A stretch of DNA of 64,000 nucleotides from Thioalkalivibrio sp. XN279 (GTDB taxonomy: Bacteria; Pseudomonadota; Gammaproteobacteria; Steroidobacterales; XN24). The notes below the pieces were generated by a model that saw only the letters and a program-made list of their open reading frames with translations, was not told the origin of the DNA and did no database searches. The stretch's first letter is position 1; each line of letters opens with the position of its first letter. Of the stretch, positions 7,246 through 56,447 are shown piece by piece. Made by a program: the position numbers and the translations under genes. The stretch lies in the NCBI RefSeq assembly GCF_011089885.1, contig NZ_JAANBD010000006.1:1-64000 (forward strand). Reading direction: 5' to 3'.

Positions 7246-9327
7246 CTAGAACGAGACCTTGCCCGTGAGCGAGATGAAGTCACGGTCATTGGCCTGGTTG
7301 AACCTGCCGGCGCCGCCGAACTCGGCGTAGTTGAGCTCCACTTCGTACTTGTTGCGGAGCGTGCCCTTCAGGCCCAGCGACATGGCGGTGCGACCCTCGA
7401 TGAAGTTGCCGCCCGGCCCCGGGGATACGCCGTTGACGTCGTGGCTGTAGCTGGCGATGGGCGACAGGGTCCACGGGCCGATGGCGTTGTTGTAGATCAG
7501 CGCGCCGCGGAAACGGTAGCCCCACGAGGTCTTGCTCGGGAAGGCGCTGCGCGGATCCACCTCGCCGAAGTGGCTGCTGGCCAGCATGGCGTTGCCCGAG
7601 ACCACGGTGCCCGGCCCTTCGAGGCGCAGGCCGACGCCGTTCGGGCCGCCGGTCGTGGTGCTCGGCAGGTCGGGCACGTGGTTCATGCCCAGCTCCATTA
7701 CGAAAGCTCCGGTATCCGCGCCAAGCAACGGGCCGGAGAGGTAGGTGAACGTGGTCTGCGCCTGCCATACGTCCAGCTCGACCGCCCCCTCGATAATCTG
7801 GTTCAGGCCGTACGGACCCAGCTGGTTGAAACACCCGAGGGCCCCGACCGCGCCGTTCGGGTTGTCCGGGCACAGGCTCGGGTTGGGCGACAGGCCGTCC
7901 AGCGGCGACAGCGCCGCGAACAGCAGCTCGACATCGTCTACCTGCAGCGGGGCGTCCGGCTTGTAGGACACCTCGCCCTGCCAGGCGATGCCGGTGTTGA
8001 ACAGGTAGCCGCTCCAGCTGAAGCCCCACAGATCGAGGTCCTCGGGATAGTTCACGAAGTAGCGCGAGGTCTGCGCCAGCTCGTCCGAAGCGAAGGAACT
8101 CGCCAGGCCAGAGAGGTTGCCGCCGCCGAGGAACACGTTGCCGGCCACGATGGCCCGGTCACGCACCTTGGCTTCGCTGATGTCGCCGCCGAGGCTGGCG
8201 GCAGTGAGCATCGCCTGCGCCGTTGCGGTGTTCACCGCGGCGTCGAATGACAGGCCGGAGGCCAGGCCGATGGCCGTGGCCTGCGCCGCCGTGGCGACCG
8301 CCGCCGAGTTGCCGAGGCCGGCCTGGGTGCCGGTGCGGCCGCTGATCACGGGCAGGCGGCTGTGGTAGCGAATGTAGTAAAAGCCGAACTCCATGCCGCC
8401 CATCAAGTCCTCAGCGAAGTAGCGGAACGCCAGGCCGTACTGCCCGCCGTCGTCCGGCCGCTCGGTGTCGTCGCGCGGCACGAAGTTGAAGTCCGGGTCG
8501 AAGGAGCCGCCCAGCGGCGTGAAATCCGTGCCCTGGTCACCCCAGGCGCCGAAACCCAGCATGACGTGGGTGCCGCCCTTGGTGGCAAAGTCATTGGTGG
8601 AGAAATAGCTGCCGGCCGGGTCCGGCTCGACCTTCTCCCAGTCGTACTGGTAGTACGCCTCGATGCTGGTGTTCAGGGTCGGCGAGAAACTCAGGGACGC
8701 CATGCCCTGGGGCACAAGCGCTTCCCTCAGCTCGGCGCCGGGCACGCGCAGCTGCGATACGTCGAAGGGGTTGGTGACGTTGATGCCGCCCTGGATGAAC
8801 GTACTTTCGCCCCAGTTGATCACCTGGTTGCCGATGCGGAACTCCGCCGGCATGCTGCCGAGGTCGAAGGGTACGAAGACGAAGTAATCGAGCATCTTCA
8901 CGTCCTGCTCGACCAGCTCCTCCGCCCTGTCCGAGAGCGGGGTGCGCAGCGTGTCGCCGACTTCCCAGTCGGTGAAGCCGGTGGCGCGTGCGAACAGGCC
9001 CCAGGAGTCGCGGTAACGCAGCTCGAGTTCGGTCGTGGCCTTGAGCACGTTCGAAACCAGGCCGTTGCTGTAGTTCAGGTTGCCGTCGTCGCCGTTGGCG
9101 CTGCGGCCGCAGCCGCCGTTGGCATTCGCGATCAGCCTGCAGTCCGGGCTTTCAACGCGCCACAAGGCGCCGAGGGACAGCGTGGTGTCCCAGCTGCCCG
9201 ACCAGTTCTCGGTTTGGATCGGCACCGCCGATGCCGGTGCTGCATAGCTCGCAGCAATTGCGGCCGCTATCGCGGTCGCCAGGATGCGTCCGTTGCCCGG
9301 ACGGGCCCTGGAGGGTTGCGTGCTCAT
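7246..9327 (-). CDS. DUF1302 family outer-membrane beta-barrel protein
   Basis: This 693-aa protein has a long signal peptide (about residues 1-34, ending APASA). Alternating hydrophobic/polar strands with many aromatics follow, and it ends in ...GKVSF with the terminal Phe typical of outer-membrane barrels. The early WSGSWDTTLSLGALWR strand, the NQVINWGES motif and the family length fit DUF1302. GGGAG precedes the ATG. It is the first gene of the four-gene cassette. A role as outer-membrane channel for a hydrophobic substrate is inferred from family company. Confidence 0.88.
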   Translation of the reverse strand: MSTQPSRARPGNGRILATAIAAAIAASYAAPASAVPIQTENWSGSWDTTLSLGALWRVESPDCRLIANANGGCGRSANGDDGNLNYSNGLVSNVLKATTELELRYRDSWGLFARATGFTDWEVGDTLRTPLSDRAEELVEQDVKMLDYFVFVPFDLGSMPAEFRIGNQVINWGESTFIQGGINVTNPFDVSQLRVPGAELREALVPQGMASLSFSPTLNTSIEAYYQYDWEKVEPDPAGSYFSTNDFATKGGTHVMLGFGAWGDQGTDFTPLGGSFDPDFNFVPRDDTERPDDGGQYGLAFRYFAEDLMGGMEFGFYYIRYHSRLPVISGRTGTQAGLGNSAAVATAAQATAIGLASGLSFDAAVNTATAQAMLTAASLGGDISEAKVRDRAIVAGNVFLGGGNLSGLASSFASDELAQTSRYFVNYPEDLDLWGFSWSGYLFNTGIAWQGEVSYKPDAPLQVDDVELLFAALSPLDGLSPNPSLCPDNPNGAVGALGCFNQLGPYGLNQIIEGAVELDVWQAQTTFTYLSGPLLGADTGAFVMELGMNHVPDLPSTTTGGPNGVGLRLEGPGTVVSGNAMLASSHFGEVDPRSAFPSKTSWGYRFRGALIYNNAIGPWTLSPIASYSHDVNGVSPGPGGNFIEGRTAMSLGLKGTLRNKYEVELNYAEFGGAGRFNQANDRDFISLTGKVSF

Positions 9328-9584
9328 TGAGGACTCCCCAGTTCTTGTGTGTGTTTTGCACGTTGCCCCGCAACCGGACTCCCCCGGCGCGTCCCGCTAC
9401 TCTTACAGAATTCGTCACTCGAAAACAACATCTTGGATCAATTACCGCGCGGAAAGCGCAATACAGGGAAACGCGTTGTTGCGCGCAAACCAAAGCCGGC
9501 CCGGACGGACGGCGCACACCAACGGGGCGCGCATTGCGCTGCAGCAAAAATTCCCGCACGGACAGCGTGAGAACAGCGCGAGGA
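9328..9584. other. Intergenic region upstream of the DUF1302 cassette
   Basis: This 257-base spacer lies between the DUF1302 start and the plsB stop, both on the minus strand. It is less GC-rich than its surroundings and must carry the promoter of the DUF1302 cassette. I see no small gene, and no inverted repeat strong enough to call a terminator for plsB. Confidence 0.5.
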
Positions 9585-17043: not shown

Positions 17044-17847
17044 ATGAGCGAATTCGCCGGGAACGTCGTCGTCGTCACCGGAGCCTCCGAGGGCATCGGG
17101 CGTGCGCTGTGCGAGGCGCTGGCGCCCCAGGGCCCGAAGCTCGTGCTCTCGGCGCGCAACGAGGAGCGGCTCGAGGCACTGGCCGCGACCTGCCGCGCCG
17201 CCGGCGCCGAAGTGCTGGTGGTCCCGGGCGACCTGACGCATGAAGAAGCCTGCCGCAGCCTCGTCGCCGCCACCATCGCGCACTTCGGCCGTCTCGACAC
17301 GCTGGTCGCCAACGCCGGCCGGACGATGTGGGCGCGCGTCGACGAGATCGAGGACCTGGCCATCTTCCGCGAGGTCATGGAGCTGAACTACTTCTCCGTG
17401 GTGAATGTGACCATGGCCGCACTGCCGCACCTGAAAGCCTCGCGCGGCCGCATCGTGCCCGTGGCGAGCGTCGCCGGGCTCACCGGCGTGCCGTCGCGCA
17501 GCGGCTACTGCGCCAGCAAGCATGCGCTGATCGGGTTCTTCGATTCCCTGCGCATCGAACTGGGGGACAGCGGCGTCACCGTCACCACCATCTGCCCCGA
17601 CTTCGTCGTCACCGAGATTCATCGTCGTGCCCTGGACGGCAAGGGACGGCCGCTCGGCGTGACCCCGATGCAGGAGTCCAGGATCATGACCGCAGCCCAG
17701 TGCGCCGAGCTCATGATCCCCGCCATGGCGCAGCGCAAGCGCATGCTCATCACCTCGCGCCGGGGAAAGCTGGGGCGCTTCCTGAAGATCTTTGCGCCGG
17801 GACTGATCGACCGCATCGCGGCCAAGGCGATCGCCGACCGCAAGTAA
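17044..17847 (+). CDS. SDR family NAD(P)-dependent oxidoreductase
   Basis: This 267-aa classical short-chain dehydrogenase has TGASEGIG at residues 12-19 (cofactor binding), ANAGR at 89-93, a catalytic Ser near 142 and Tyr155-x-x-x-Lys159. The C-terminal 60 residues contain a basic, amphipathic end (RRGKLGRFLKIFAPGLIDRI), as in SDRs that act on lipid substrates at membranes. It is divergent from the lipoprotein gene; the substrate is not known. Confidence 0.88.
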   Translation: MSEFAGNVVVVTGASEGIGRALCEALAPQGPKLVLSARNEERLEALAATCRAAGAEVLVVPGDLTHEEACRSLVAATIAHFGRLDTLVANAGRTMWARVDEIEDLAIFREVMELNYFSVVNVTMAALPHLKASRGRIVPVASVAGLTGVPSRSGYCASKHALIGFFDSLRIELGDSGVTVTTICPDFVVTEIHRRALDGKGRPLGVTPMQESRIMTAAQCAELMIPAMAQRKRMLITSRRGKLGRFLKIFAPGLIDRIAAKAIADRK

Positions 17848-17898
17848 CCTGGCCGCCACCTCGCCCCCGACCGCACCGGGACCCTGCCGACCTCGGGA

Positions 17899-17987
17899 CC
17901 TGACCGCGGGGCCGGACCGTGCAAGGCGCCCTTCGTTCGGAAATCTTTATCTCACTCAGTGCGCCTTGCACGTCCCGACCCCGCTGC
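17899..17987 (-). repeat. Palindromic repeat unit, copy A (left terminal repeat)
   Basis: The hairpin arms are 17908-17929 and 17961-17982, pairing at 19 of 22 positions, around a 31-base loop. Read on the minus strand, the loop contains GAGATAAAGATTTC. The inner six stem bases are AGGCGC paired with GCGCCT. It is inverted relative to copies B and C. Confidence 0.75.
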
Positions 17988-18170
17988 GGCGTTGCAGGGC
18001 GCGGGGTCCTGGGGGGCACTGAGGCTCGGGGGTCGGCGCCGACGCTGCCGCGCGTGGCTCAGTCGGATGACGGCGACCTTCGTGGCCGAGGCCGCGCCGG
18101 ATCCGGCCGACGCCGGGAAGACCGGCAAGGCTGACATCCCGGCGGCGCGACGCGACCATCGCACCCGTGA

Positions 18171-18225
18171 CAGAGGCAGCACCGGGTCTTGCGGACGTGT
18201 CCGCAACGACCCCGAAGCGCCTCTG
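18171..18225. repeat. Nested hairpin in the core of the 447-bp element
   Basis: Three concentric stems lie in 55 bp: CAGAGGC with GCCTCTG outside, GGGTC with GACCC in the middle, and TTGCGGAC with GTCCGCAA around a 2-base turn. The internal bulges are short. It could fold as RNA or as a DNA cruciform. No T-tract follows. Confidence 0.55.
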
Positions 18226-18254
18226 CGCTATCGAACCCCGCTATCTGCGACCCG

Positions 18255-18345
18255 GCAGCGGGGTCGGGACGTGCAATGCTCACCGAGCGATATAAAGATT
18301 TCATTGAGCGAGGGGAGCATTGCACGGCGCGGCCCCGCGGTCAGG
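18255..18345 (+). repeat. Palindromic repeat unit, copy B (right terminal repeat)
   Basis: Arms 18260-18281 and 18315-18336 enclose a 33-base loop containing GATATAAAGATTTC (18289-18302). The inner stem bases are ATGCTC paired with GAGCAT. Compared with copies A and C the inner stem differs on both sides in a compensating way. Confidence 0.75.
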
Positions 18346-18351
18346 GCTCCG

Positions 18352-18858
18352 TCAGACGTCGTCGAGGAACCAGTCGAAGAATCGATTGATCTCGAAGATG
18401 TGGTCCGTGAGGCGGTGGTCGCCATCGATGAGATGCAGCCCGGCGCGCTGCTCGCGCGCGAAGCGAATGCTGTTGTCGACCGGGACCACGTCGTCGCGCC
18501 AGCCGTGGACGATGGTGATCCTGGCGGCGCGTGGTGTCGGGGTCAGCGCCTCGTAGCCCGGCATGTAGAACGCCGGCGCGATCAGGAACAGGCCGCGCAC
18601 CGCCGGGAGTTGCGCCGAGGCCGCGGCCGCCACGTGTCCGCCCATGCTGGAACCGACCAGCACCAGCGGTTTTTGCAGCGGCTGGCAATGCGCCACCAGC
18701 TTCGCCACCCGCGCCGCCGGGTCGTCCATGCCGCGGTAGTCGATGCTCTCGACCTCGAGGCCGCGGTCGCGCGCCAGGTCGGCCATGGCGGAAATCTTGC
18801 TGCCCCAGGGGCCGCTCTCCTTGCCGTGCGAGAAACAGACATAGGGTTGGCGGGACAT
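18352..18858 (-). CDS. RBBP9/YqiA-like small alpha/beta hydrolase
   Basis: This 168-aa single-domain hydrolase has the nucleophile elbow GSSMGG (Ser71), a candidate catalytic Asp122 in HGWRDD and His148 in DGDH. The start HGKESGPWGSK, with a His-Gly oxyanion-hole motif, is typical of short hydrolases close to YqiA/RBBP9. It is cytoplasmic with no signal peptide. Its stop lies 6 bases from the end of the 447-bp repeat element, so that element is its downstream region. The substrate is unknown; carboxyl-ester cleavage is the family expectation. Confidence 0.82.
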   Translation of the reverse strand: MSRQPYVCFSHGKESGPWGSKISAMADLARDRGLEVESIDYRGMDDPAARVAKLVAHCQPLQKPLVLVGSSMGGHVAAAASAQLPAVRGLFLIAPAFYMPGYEALTPTPRAARITIVHGWRDDVVPVDNSIRFAREQRAGLHLIDGDHRLTDHIFEINRFFDWFLDDV

Positions 18859-42022: not shown

Positions 42023-42270
42023 TCCTGGTCGCGATGCGCCGCGCGCTCCGACAAGCACAGGATGCGGAGCGGCAGTGACTTACAACCCGTCGACACCGCG
42101 TGGCTCGGCGTCGGCCGCCAGGGCCTGGCGCGCGCCTCACTGCGCGCGATATTGCAACTGAGCTGCTGGATCCTGTTCATGGCATCTCTCCTCTGCTTTT
42201 CCCTTCCCTTACTTGGAGAGATGCGGCAGCTCGTCATCGCGTCGCATGGCCTCGCGGCCGGACCTGTTAT
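42023..42270. other. Non-coding gap after the amidohydrolase gene
   Basis: This 248-base spacer separates the amidohydrolase stop from the stop of the convergent radical SAM gene. A minus-strand frame with a GGAGAG-preceded ATG near 42180 runs back into the amidohydrolase gene but has no recognisable composition. I see no RNA gene or clear terminator. Confidence 0.4.
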
Positions 42271-43335
42271 TCAAAAAAGCTCGCCCTGGCCGTCCGGCGC
42301 GCGGAACAGGTCTTCACGCAGGCCAAAACCCTCGCCCTGGTTCAGCCCGTGGCGCCGCACCGCCACCTTGAAGCGCCGGGCGATCAGGTCGGCGAACACG
42401 CCCTCGCCGCGCAGCCGCACGCCGAACCGGCTGTCGTTGTCGCGCCCACCGCGCATCTGCTGTACCAAGCTCATGACGTGACTCGCCCGCTCAGGCAGGT
42501 GCTCGTCCAGCCACTCCCGGAACAGCGGCGCCACCTCGTGCGGCAGCCGCAACAGGGCGTAGCTTGCACGCGTGGCGCCGGCCGCCGCGGCCTGCGCCAG
42601 GATCTCCTCGAGGTGGATGTCGGTCACGGCGGGGATCACCGGCGAGACCAGCACCCCGACGGGCACGCCGGCCGCCGCCAGGGTCGCGATGGCGCGCAGC
42701 CTCCGCGCCGGCGCGGAGGCCCGCGGCTCGAGCTTTGCCGACAGCCGGTTGTCCAGGCTGGTGACCGACACCAGCACGGCCACCAGCCCGTCGCGCGCCA
42801 TGGCGGTAAGCAGGTCGAGGTCGCGCTCCACCATGGCGCTCTTGGTGATGATGGTGCAGGAATGGCGCGCCTCGGCCAGCACCTCGAGCAGCTCGCGCGT
42901 CACCCGGTAGCGCTTGTCGATCGGCTGGTAGGGATCCGTGTTGGCGCCGAGGTTGATCGGCGTCGGCCGGTAGCCGCGCTTCGACAGCGTGGCGCGCAGC
43001 AGCTCGGCGGCATTCGTCTTGGCGTAGAGCTTGGTCTCGAAATCCAGCCCGGGCGAGAGGTCGATGAAGGCGTGGCTGGGCCGCGCATAGCAGTACACGC
43101 ACCCGTGCTCGCAGCCGCGGTAGGGGTTGATGGAAGCGTCGAAGGGGATGTCGGGCGACTGGTTGCGCGAGACGATGCTGCGCGCCCGCTCCTCCGTCAC
43201 CGTCGTCGCCGGGCGCCCCGGCGCATCCTCGGGGTCCGGGAACCAGCCATCCTCGACCGCTTCGCGCGCCACCTGCTCGAACCGTCCCTGGGGATTCGAG
43301 ACTGCGCCGCGGCCTTTAAAGGCACCGCGACCCAT
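42271..43335 (-). CDS. PA0069-type radical SAM protein (SplB-like)
   Basis: This 354-aa protein has the 4Fe-4S/SAM motif CEHGCVYCYARPSH, preceded by NPYRGC, and the NLGANTDPYQPIDK and VSVTSLDNRLSAKLEPRA segments of the PA0069/spore-photolyase-like radical SAM group. ATG 43335 is preferred because AAGGGGAA lies just upstream and family proteins start close to the KGRGA motif; ATG 43359 would add 8 residues. Function is unproven: family members are called radical SAM repair-like or rRNA-related proteins only by homology. A 96-bp palindromic element lies between it and lipA. Confidence 0.85.
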   Translation of the reverse strand: MGRGAFKGRGAVSNPQGRFEQVAREAVEDGWFPDPEDAPGRPATTVTEERARSIVSRNQSPDIPFDASINPYRGCEHGCVYCYARPSHAFIDLSPGLDFETKLYAKTNAAELLRATLSKRGYRPTPINLGANTDPYQPIDKRYRVTRELLEVLAEARHSCTIITKSAMVERDLDLLTAMARDGLVAVLVSVTSLDNRLSAKLEPRASAPARRLRAIATLAAAGVPVGVLVSPVIPAVTDIHLEEILAQAAAAGATRASYALLRLPHEVAPLFREWLDEHLPERASHVMSLVQQMRGGRDNDSRFGVRLRGEGVFADLIARRFKVAVRRHGLNQGEGFGLREDLFRAPDGQGELF

Positions 43336-43383
43336 CGAGTTCCCCTTCGGCTCAGACATGGCGGGGTGTCTCGGGCCGCGCGA

Positions 43384-43479
43384 CGCAGAATGGGCGTTTT
43401 CGGGGCGCTCGCGCACAGGACGTGCGCGAGCGAGCGTACAGGGACGTATTCACAGCGTCCCCGAAAACGCTCATCTGCG
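43384..43479. repeat. 96-bp palindromic element with inner hairpins
   Basis: The outer arms GCGTTTTCGGGG (43394-43405) and CCCCGAAAACGC (43459-43470) match perfectly and extend imperfectly to CGCAGA/TCTGCG. Inside is a perfect 11-bp hairpin, CGCTCGCGCAC with GTGCGCGAGCG around AGGAC (43406-43432), and a 6-bp hairpin, GGGACG with CGTCCC (43441-43461). It lies 20 bases after the lipA stop and before the radical SAM start. It may act as a lipA terminator or be a dispersed intergenic element. Confidence 0.7.
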
Positions 43480-43499
43480 GCGCGTGGCCCCAGCCACCG

Positions 43500-44504
43500 T
43501 CACAACCCGACGTTGTTCTGCTCGAACACCCGGTCGGCGCGATAGCTGGAGCGGACCAGCGGGCCGGACACCACCTCGAGGAAGCCCATCTCCAGCCCAA
43601 TGCGGCGGTACTCGGCGAACTCCTCCGGCGTGACGAAGCGCTCCACCGGGAGGTGGTTGGCGGTCGGCCGCAGGTACTGGCCGAAGGTCACGATATCCAC
43701 GTTGCGCGCCTTGAGGTCCTCGAGCGTCTCGAGGATCTCGGCCTCGGTCTCCCCGAGGCCGAGCATCAGGCTGGTCTTGGTCAGCACTTCGGGCCGGTGG
43801 CGCTTGGCGTGCTCCAGCACGTCGAGGGTCTGCTCGTAGCCGGCGCGCGGGTCGCGCACCGGGTGGGTCAGCCGCCGCACCGTCTCGAGGTTCTGGGCGT
43901 AGACCTCGAGGCCGGAGTCCACCACCGTCTCGATCGCGGCCAGGTCGCCGCGGAAGTCCGGCGTCAGTGCCTCGACGGCCGTGTCCGGATTGAGCGCCTT
44001 GATCTCCCGCACGCAGGCGGCGTAGTGCGCCGCGCCGCCGTCGTCGAGGTCGTCGCGATCAACGCTGGTGATGACCACGTAACGCAGCCCCATCAGCTGC
44101 ACCGAGCGCGCCGAGTTGGCCGGCTCCTCGGCATCCAGCCAGCCGCGCGGGTTGCCGGTGTCCACCGCGCAGAACCGGCAGGCGCGGGTGCAGACCGAGC
44201 CCATGATCATCAGCGTCGCGGTGCCGTTGTTCCAGCACTCGCCGATGTTCGGGCACATCGATTCCTCGCACACCGTGGCGAGGCGGTGCTCGCGCACGTT
44301 CTGCTTCACCTTGGCGAAGCGCTCGCCGCTCGGCATCTTGGCCCGCAGCCACGGCGGCTTGCGCCCGTGCGGCGCGGCCTCGGCGCGCGGGTTCTGCTTC
44401 ACGCCGTTCTTGATCGCGGCAAAGCCCTGCTCGGTGCGGAACTTGGTCCCGCTGGGCACGCGGGCCGGCTGCACGATGGGGATGCCTTTGAAGTTGGTGT
44501 CCAT
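43500..44504 (-). CDS. lipA: Lipoyl synthase
   Basis: This 334-aa radical SAM enzyme inserts two sulfurs into octanoyl groups on lipoyl-dependent proteins. The auxiliary cluster motif [12 protein letters not shown] and the radical SAM motif CTRACRFC are both present, followed by [10 protein letters not shown] and the C-terminal RSSYRAD end typical of LipA. ATG 44504 gives family length; the open frame to 45434 lies over the iron transporter gene and is not coding. No lipB is adjacent in the window. It is divergent from the Fur-regulated iron transport operon. Confidence 0.95.
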
Positions 44505-44550
44505 GGCGCGCAATTCTCGCACGCGCCAGCCGGGACGGGGAGCCAGCTGC

Positions 44551-44579
44551 TTGTTAATGCGAACGATTCGCATTATTCT
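44551..44579 (+). promoter_or_regulatory. Promoter with overlapping Fur box upstream of iron transporter
   Basis: TAATGCGAA and TTCGCATTA form perfect 9-bp arms around CGA (44555-44575), matching the inverted-repeat form of Fur operators. It sits between TTGTTA (44551-44556) and TATTCT (44574-44579), which are 17 bases apart and read as -35 and -10 elements. Fur with iron would block this promoter. The lipA start is only 46 bases away on the other strand, so some effect on lipA is possible. Confidence 0.8.
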
Positions 44580-44615
44580 GTTGAGCCCTGTCACCCGAGA
44601 CTTGCAGGAGTCGTC

Positions 44616-56169: not shown

Positions 56170-56340
56170 CCCCCCAGGCGCCCAGCCGTCCGCCCGGCCA
56201 CTGCGTCGTTAGCAGGGTGCGCCAGGTGGCGCCCGCCGAGCGTCGCGGCCTGCCGAGCGTCACCCCCTCGGGCCTCGCACTCACCTGGCCATGCGGTCTC
56301 CGGGAGCGCTGGCCAGCGCCCGATATGTTGACTAGCCACC

Positions 56341-56414
56341 GGGTCGGGACGTGCACGGCTCACCGAGCGATATAAAGATTTCCTGAGCGAGGGGAGCCGT
56401 GCACGGCCCGACCC
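56341..56414 (+). repeat. Palindromic repeat unit, copy C
   Basis: Arms 56341-56361 and 56394-56414 pair at 20 of 21 positions around a 32-base loop containing GATATAAAGATTTC (56369-56382). The inner stem bases are CGGCTC with GAGCCG, different from copies A and B but still paired. It stands alone, about 38 kb from the other two. Confidence 0.8.
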
Positions 56415-56430
56415 CTCCGTAGGTTAAAAT

Positions 56431-56447
56431 CGAACGCTTGTTTAGCG
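56431..56447. promoter_or_regulatory. Possible PsrA-type operator upstream of the acyl-CoA dehydrogenase gene
   Basis: CGAAC-GCTT-GTTTAG resembles the GAAAC-N4-GTTTC pattern bound by PsrA and related TetR regulators of fatty-acid oxidation. It lies 21 bases before the start codon. Similarity is partial. Confidence 0.25.

Follow-up and report, generated by a model that had tools for sequence, protein, structure and literature searches.

Paired inverted hairpins dispersed behind gene 3′ ends in a Thioalkalivibrio-related genus: a probable REPIN-like family of mobile repeats

Introduction

REPINs are inverted doublets of REP repeats and are proposed to be moved by RAYTs (PMC3116915). REP repeats are described as lying mostly in convergent or unidirectional gaps near gene 3′ ends; in those of the GTAG/CGTC type the stems measure 5-13 bp and the loops 2-20, with a tag left unpaired, and the CGTC repeats are reported to be without a dedicated transposase (PMC3733652). 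The same source records GTAG repeats in Thioalkalivibrio K90mix and HL-EbGR7. Further families of intergenic stem-loops are ERIC, YPAL, EFA-1 and Pae-1, the last two being described as double hairpins (PMC2267715).

Here we analyze an element found in a stretch of 64,000 nucleotides (the window) and its relatives in three genomes: the source genome (G000), Thioalkalivibrio sp. XN8 (G001) and a third congener (G002). A literature search, mostly outside subscription journals, found no account of this hairpin family.

Results

The element in the window

A gap of 504 bp between two convergent genes (17848-18351) is filled by the element. The following features were located in the window:

17897-18345, no strand assigned: whole element, GACCTG...CAGG (complementarity of the ends, own-genome BLAST, folding, similarity edges)
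17897-17990, plus strand: left hairpin with type A loop, outer foot GACCTGACCGCGGGGCCGG and inner stem 17919-17929/17961-17971 (covariance model, folding)
17930-17960, plus strand: left loop, with GAAATCTTTAT at 17940-17950 (motif search, folding)
17991-18247, no strand assigned: core between the hairpins, of which only some copies share parts (copy comparison)
18248-18345, minus strand: right hairpin, inverted, loop motif on the minus strand, inner stem 18271-18281/18315-18325 (covariance model, folding)
18282-18314, minus strand: right loop, with GAAATCTTTAT at 18292-18302 on the minus strand (motif search, folding)
17868-17884, plus strand: possible scar, resembling a type C hairpin foot (G000:C28:324588; likeness judged by eye)
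17044-17847, plus strand: convergent neighbour, short-chain dehydrogenase-like (named from its translation alone)
18352-18858, minus strand: convergent neighbour, alpha/beta-hydrolase-like (named from its translation alone)
56318-56435, minus strand: second family hairpin, between tandem genes (motif search, covariance model)

A sequence-only reading of the window had proposed two inverted ends, each of them a hairpin, and this was confirmed. The arms 17899-17938 and 18306-18345 are inverted and 85% complementary, inner stems were found at both ends, and the loops measure 31 nt (left) and 33 nt (right). Folding went beyond that of shuffled sequences: the whole element as ssDNA gave z = -12.6, with none of 100 shuffles equally stable, and the two window hairpins folded on either strand gave z = -3.6 to -5.6, with none of 200. 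The limits that had been proposed are also good, as 11 of 20 similarity edges in ten copy pairs fall at a GACCTG/CAGGTC foot tip (for two left edges, that of an additional outer foot); nine lie elsewhere, and in four of the ten pairs an edge lies inside the element. It had rightly been seen that the ends are unusually long and that the core holds no transposase. The statement that this is the only gap over 300 bases was roughly right: a simple gene caller gives two more, 9226-9584 and 43273-44615, the latter covered by a missed ORF read as lipoyl synthase.

An example of a shared core is an 82% match to G000:C15:174403 over 233 bp, hairpin included. GAAATCTTTAT matches three times in the window against 0.02 expected, in both loops of the element and at 56372. 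For the second window hairpin, family hairpins are present in the orthologous gaps of both congeners. Rfam 15 gave nothing above gathering score in the element; a sub-threshold P10 match (21.4 vs 37 bits) lies outside it at 18491-18590. No terminator-like site with a T tract was found around the window copy within 17600-18600. A further long convergent gap, 42023-42270, has a weaker hairpin (z -3.0 for 42130-42272) that is not matched by the covariance model.

Copies and distribution

The proposal of a dispersed element had been made to depend on its recurrence, and the element is not unique: BLAST against its own genome gave at least 42 matches, with 40 of 120 candidates scored and many hairpins matching on both strands. 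GAAATCTTTAT occurs there 23 times exactly, and with at most one mismatch 36 times against 4 for the reversed pattern. In all, 65 places were listed (31 in the source genome, 23 in XN8 and 11 in G002), to which two contig-end copies in XN8 (C62:118888 and C6:52974) are additional. The search for places relied on similarity to type A hairpins and so under-counts the remaining loop types. For analysis of anatomy, 100 oriented hairpins minus six judged false left 94 around the 65 places (49, 31 and 14 in G000, G001 and G002), of which 93 were usable for folding and tag counts.

A covariance model was built from 35 hairpins; its E-values are rough. With stricter filters it gave 57, 36 and 15 matches in G000, G001 and G002, and with laxer filters 62 in G000, some matches in both cases being one hairpin on both strands. 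With the stricter filters, 56 further genomes from the family and order gave no match. Among 396 genomes of the order, the type B loop pattern, allowing one mismatch, was present in these three congeners and missing from the other 393. The exact type A loop, scanned across the genome-contig collection, gave seven loci: one is XN8 (model E 4.7e-14), and the other six, none better than model E 0.5, are taken as chance. Plasmids and phages searched by blastn with the element, and viral contigs searched with two exact loop patterns, gave no match. The family is so far known from one Thioalkalivibrio-related genus only.

Hairpin anatomy and strand asymmetry

Each hairpin is about 90 nt long with 22 consensus pairs, and loops range from 21 to 36 nt across the family. 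In the consensus the foot tips are conserved and the stem sequences are variable. Related loop types were distinguished as A (GAAATCTTTAT), B (GGAAnTCTTATGCC), C (GGTTAATGAGATGCC) and D (in G002), and the left and right ends of one element may carry different types. A partner was detected for 65 of the 94 hairpins and not for 29. Among the 33 pairs of neighbouring hairpins within 450 bp, 30 are arranged plus then minus, two are plus-plus, one is minus-minus and none is minus then plus.

Compensating stem bases, noticed between the two ends of the window element by the sequence-only reading, proved to be a property of the whole family: in 21 of 22 stem pairs both partners have changed. Paired cells make up 94.9% of the stems as compared with 69.4% in shuffles, and the covariation score is 0.653 vs 0.187, a value reached by none of 500 shuffles. 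Of 490 inner-stem cells, 472 are Watson-Crick, seven are A-C and two are G-T. G-U wobble is usual in selected RNA stems; with only two such cells it is nearly missing here.

Four mismatches are fixed among the 35 hairpins: C.T in 24 (columns 31/91), C.T in 28 (45/77), T.C in 30 (48/74) and C.T in 31 (49/73). These pyrimidine mismatches are purine-purine on the opposite strand, and because of them the complementary strand folds better: it is the more stable one in 89 of 93 hairpins with DNA parameters and in 87 of 93 with RNA parameters.

Position relative to genes

At the 62 places with known neighbours the flanking genes are convergent in 43, tandem in 17 and divergent in 2; three more places lie at contig ends. 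The window's own junctions, as called, are 10 convergent, 30 tandem and 9 divergent. Tested against these, the three genomes together gave P of about 1e-16 for the convergent count and 4e-4 for two or fewer divergent places, with the reservation that orthologous places are not independent; G000 alone (22 convergent, 7 tandem and 1 divergent of 30) gave 7e-10 and 0.02.

The codon-score gene caller missed genes, and ORFs were therefore listed at the 19 places whose called neighbour lay far away. Seven places were classed by hand, C23:140770 and G002 C36:431848 as divergent, C23:142034, C24:12918 and C29:226225 as convergent, and G002 C34:627140 and 628095 as tandem; all others keep the verdict of the caller. 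The bias remains clear after this correction, which changed 42 convergent, 20 tandem and no divergent places into the counts given above.

In the gaps that were inspected the element often starts at a stop codon or a few dozen bases from it. Whole plus-then-minus pairs occur between tandem genes too. In 75 of 94 hairpins the loop motif shares its strand with the nearest upstream gene, a figure that partly follows from the fixed plus-then-minus order in convergent gaps.

Conserved places with changing content

Of the 31 places in the source genome, 24 are shared: G001, G002 or both contain an element in the orthologous gap. Three of the 24 (C23:142034, C23:161 and C28:324640) are matched by one flank only. 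Two of the remaining places are second hairpins adjoining shared gaps and five have no listed partner. The content of the places differs between species: the best copy from the same genome is closer than the orthologous one in 44 of 60 directed comparisons, and the orthologue is closer in 16, the 60 being 30 pairs taken in both directions, with a single hairpin often standing for the element. Identity between same-genome copies is only about 70-92% in their long matches, which indicates that the spread is not recent.

The sequence-only reading had suggested looking for empty sites. Three short empty orthologous gaps were found in the congeners, and inspection by eye revealed no target-site duplication at any of them. 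The window place is occupied by another subfamily in G001 and is empty in G002, where 36 nt separate the stop codons. C29:279268 is empty in G001 (4 nt), and G002 has 4.2 kb of other DNA there without a model match. C15:261861 is empty in G002, with flank matches 42 bp apart, and G001 has 3.4 kb of other DNA, again with no model match. The empty places could be deletions. At C29:285549 G001 is occupied and the G002 stretch has no model match.

Partial outer feet outside the hairpins were counted in the 200 bp flanking each listed span, so that at single-hairpin entries one side falls within the element. They number 64 in the expected orientation and 21 reversed, about 21 being expected by chance. 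Tandem feet are present in G001:C3; elsewhere feet of a different hairpin type stand beside the current one. We read the outer feet as scars of overwritten copies, slippage being the alternative.

Candidate enzymes and SbcD

Two enzyme families, Y1 transposases and tyrosine recombinases, were searched genome-wide. A RAYT with matching ends, which the sequence-only reading had proposed to look for, was not obtained: no Y1 gene (PF01797) was detected in G000, the genome with most copies, and the two Y1_Tnp genes each of G001 and G002 have no significant family hairpin alongside, the best match (21.5 bits, E 0.027) being an unrelated-looking palindrome. Three PF00589 tyrosine recombinase hits in G000 include no IntI; two are taken, from scores and lengths, as putative XerC and XerD, and the third protein has no NCBIfam model above its cut-off. 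An integron integrase (TIGR02249, over cut-off) is present in G001 and G002 (L143:799-1755 and L142:1459-2415), and the integrase regions gave no significant covariance-model match.

SbcD is a component of SbcCD, the hairpin nuclease of E. coli (PMC4245961). With one profile (TIGR00619, E<=0.001), applied among relatives to the genus only, it was not detected in G000, G001 or G002; as a control, the profile detected it in 13 of 14 genomes (8 over cut-off). A lack of SbcD may let long hairpins persist.

Genes between copies

In some places genes lie between copies. At G002:C17:148721-150840 ArsR-like, LMWPc (ArsC-like) and ACR3 genes stand between two elements, and the orthologous gap in G000 (C29:82079) has one element. 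G002:C34:625416-628095 is an array in which three elements alternate with two toxin-antitoxin pairs (HigB/HigA-like and CcdAB); G000 and G001 have one element there. In G000:C29 (L048:3057-5341) two hairpins enclose the antitoxin gene hicB and a gene for a 488-aa Fic protein; the gap in XN8, 261 bp long, has neither gene. Either the elements capture cargo or they merely share a tolerated place with it. Two candidates for an autonomous parent were rejected: at C29:279268-285804 the genes between the hairpins are ordinary ones, judging from their translations, and at C29:226225-228701 the hairpins flank the hicB and Fic genes.

Discussion

In our opinion the element is probably a copy of a non-autonomous REPIN-like mobile repeat whose folded single strand is recognised and whose copies are overwritten in place again and again. 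The claim is that it works like a REPIN, not that it is one. Its two inverted, imperfect hairpin ends of about 90 nt would most likely be recognised as folded single strands, with one strand preferred, through the conserved loop and the fixed mismatches and not through stem sequence. Copies would survive mostly behind gene 3′ ends, and new ones would tend to overwrite older ones in place, leaving partial outer feet as scars. The mover could be a trans-acting recombinase that recognises hairpins; alternatively, the host's own replication and recombination could act on hairpins left uncut. Both fit. The data show dispersal, pairing, covariation, strand asymmetry, a location bias, an excess of outer feet, conserved places whose content changes, and places filled in one species but vacant in another; from recognition as ssDNA onwards, including movement in trans and overwriting as opposed to ordinary gene conversion, we infer. 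Against the REPIN-like mobile reading stand the genome-wide searches for Y1 and tyrosine-recombinase families, which yielded no mover, the lack of a visible duplication, a spread that is not recent, empty places that could be deletions, the comparisons won by the orthologue, the two divergent places and the similarity edges inside the element.

Old, vertically inherited elements homogenised without movement by ordinary gene conversion, through a RecA pathway acting via the conserved feet, are an unlikely explanation but one to be taken seriously. Sharing of 24 of 31 places with a congener and the likeness of same-genome copies agree with it, and unequal pairing could give tandem outer feet; by itself it gives no account of places that are filled in one species but vacant in another, although deletions could explain those. 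The convergent gaps behind stop codons, together with the loop motif lying mostly on the strand of the upstream gene, would suit two-way terminators or stem-loops protecting the RNA 3′ ends of the two converging genes. We regard this as quite unlikely, as the window copy has no T-tract site, whole pairs are present between tandem genes as well, G-U is nearly absent and the upstream gene usually reads the strand that folds less stably. Stem pairing might also be kept purely by copying of one palindrome arm from the other during replication, with no recognition involved, which would explain why one-sided changes are nearly absent. Such copying should erase the C.T mismatches and the loops, yet both are fixed across copies with different stems, which makes this very unlikely.

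Two further explanations invoke known enzymes. Genuine REPINs moved by a RAYT since lost from G000 would account for doublets, mismatched strand-biased hairpins, a location at 3′ ends and the Y1_Tnp genes of the congeners; with no conserved tag, most copies in a genome without a detected Y1 gene and no significant family hairpin beside the Y1 genes, we hold this highly improbable. Sites resembling attC, used by the integron integrase of two congeners, would be in keeping with toxin-antitoxin and arsenic genes lying between copies as in cassette arrays. RYYYAAC and GTTRRRY boxes in opposite arms are found in none of 94 hairpins (one hairpin has a single box), and because these core boxes are missing the explanation is largely refuted; the genome richest in copies has no detected IntI and the integrase regions have no model match, so that it appears extremely unlikely.

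If the REPIN-like mobile reading is right, the 94 hairpins would form a natural set in which structure is kept over sequence at the DNA level, and would offer a route to the protein that reads them. Places would persist between species as their content turns over, which to our knowledge REPIN models do not predict. Non-detection of SbcD would make it possible to test whether long-palindrome repeats go with the loss of hairpin cleavage. A tentative and rather doubtful extension is that self-targeting, non-autonomous double hairpins spread by replacing older members at fixed gene 3′ ends in a genus where SbcD was not detected. They would do so by means of a putative ssDNA-hairpin enzyme or of template switching during replication, and would also serve as cargo ports for toxin-antitoxin pairs and an arsenic cluster between direct copies.

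Comparison with known systems

The sequence-only reading had offered a mobile element or a REP-type doublet. Dispersal and the doublet-like arrangement agree with it, and neither REP proper nor a classical MITE is supported. A MITE may be the less likely given that the stems are not conserved in sequence, although the foot tips are, and that no duplication is visible at the three empty places; the enzyme searches covered Y1 and tyrosine recombinase. Against REP proper, the A1 consensus ends have no unpaired GTAG or CGTC tag, CGTC being inside the stem, and the hairpins with their 22 consensus pairs in about 90 nt are outside the REP size range (unit 20-40 bp, stem 5-13 bp). Of 93 hairpins, 1-10 have GTAG within 50 nt, depending on side and strand, and 17-41 have CGTC. 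The GTAG/CGTC REP dimers, as described in PMC3733652, share with this family the convergent or unidirectional gaps by stop codons, heterodimers and, for CGTC, the lack of a dedicated transposase; they differ in their conserved tag and shorter stems. ERIC, YPAL, EFA-1 and Pae-1 are likewise dispersed, structured and intergenic, a likeness drawn from description only, and the ERIC and YPAL models (103-168 bp) are shorter than this element (PMC2267715).

As to mode of action, covariation at the DNA level, a conserved loop, a strand bias and mismatches that stay fixed recall the substrates described for TnpA-REP (PMC8266576) and attC (PMC2727003), and this likeness would favour recognition as ssDNA. 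TnpA-REP and IS200-IS605 are described as working on folded ssDNA of one particular strand, with mismatches and the loop both having a role (PMC8266576), whereas no Y1 enzyme was detected in G000. Integron attC sites keep structure over sequence, prefer one strand and have cargo nearby, in the account of PMC2727003; the present hairpins differ in having no AAC/GTT core boxes, in forming inverted pairs and in a source genome without detected IntI.

REPINs differ from this family in that here the ends are hairpins of about 90 nt with 21-36-nt loops, cores are long, places are conserved between species, and a RAYT flanked by the same hairpins was found neither in G000 (no PF01797) nor at the congener Y1 genes. 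They share with it, as described in PMC3116915, the inverted doublet as a unit (here 30 of 33 neighbouring pairs), an extragenic location, compensatory changes, and singlets and tandem clusters beside the doublets.
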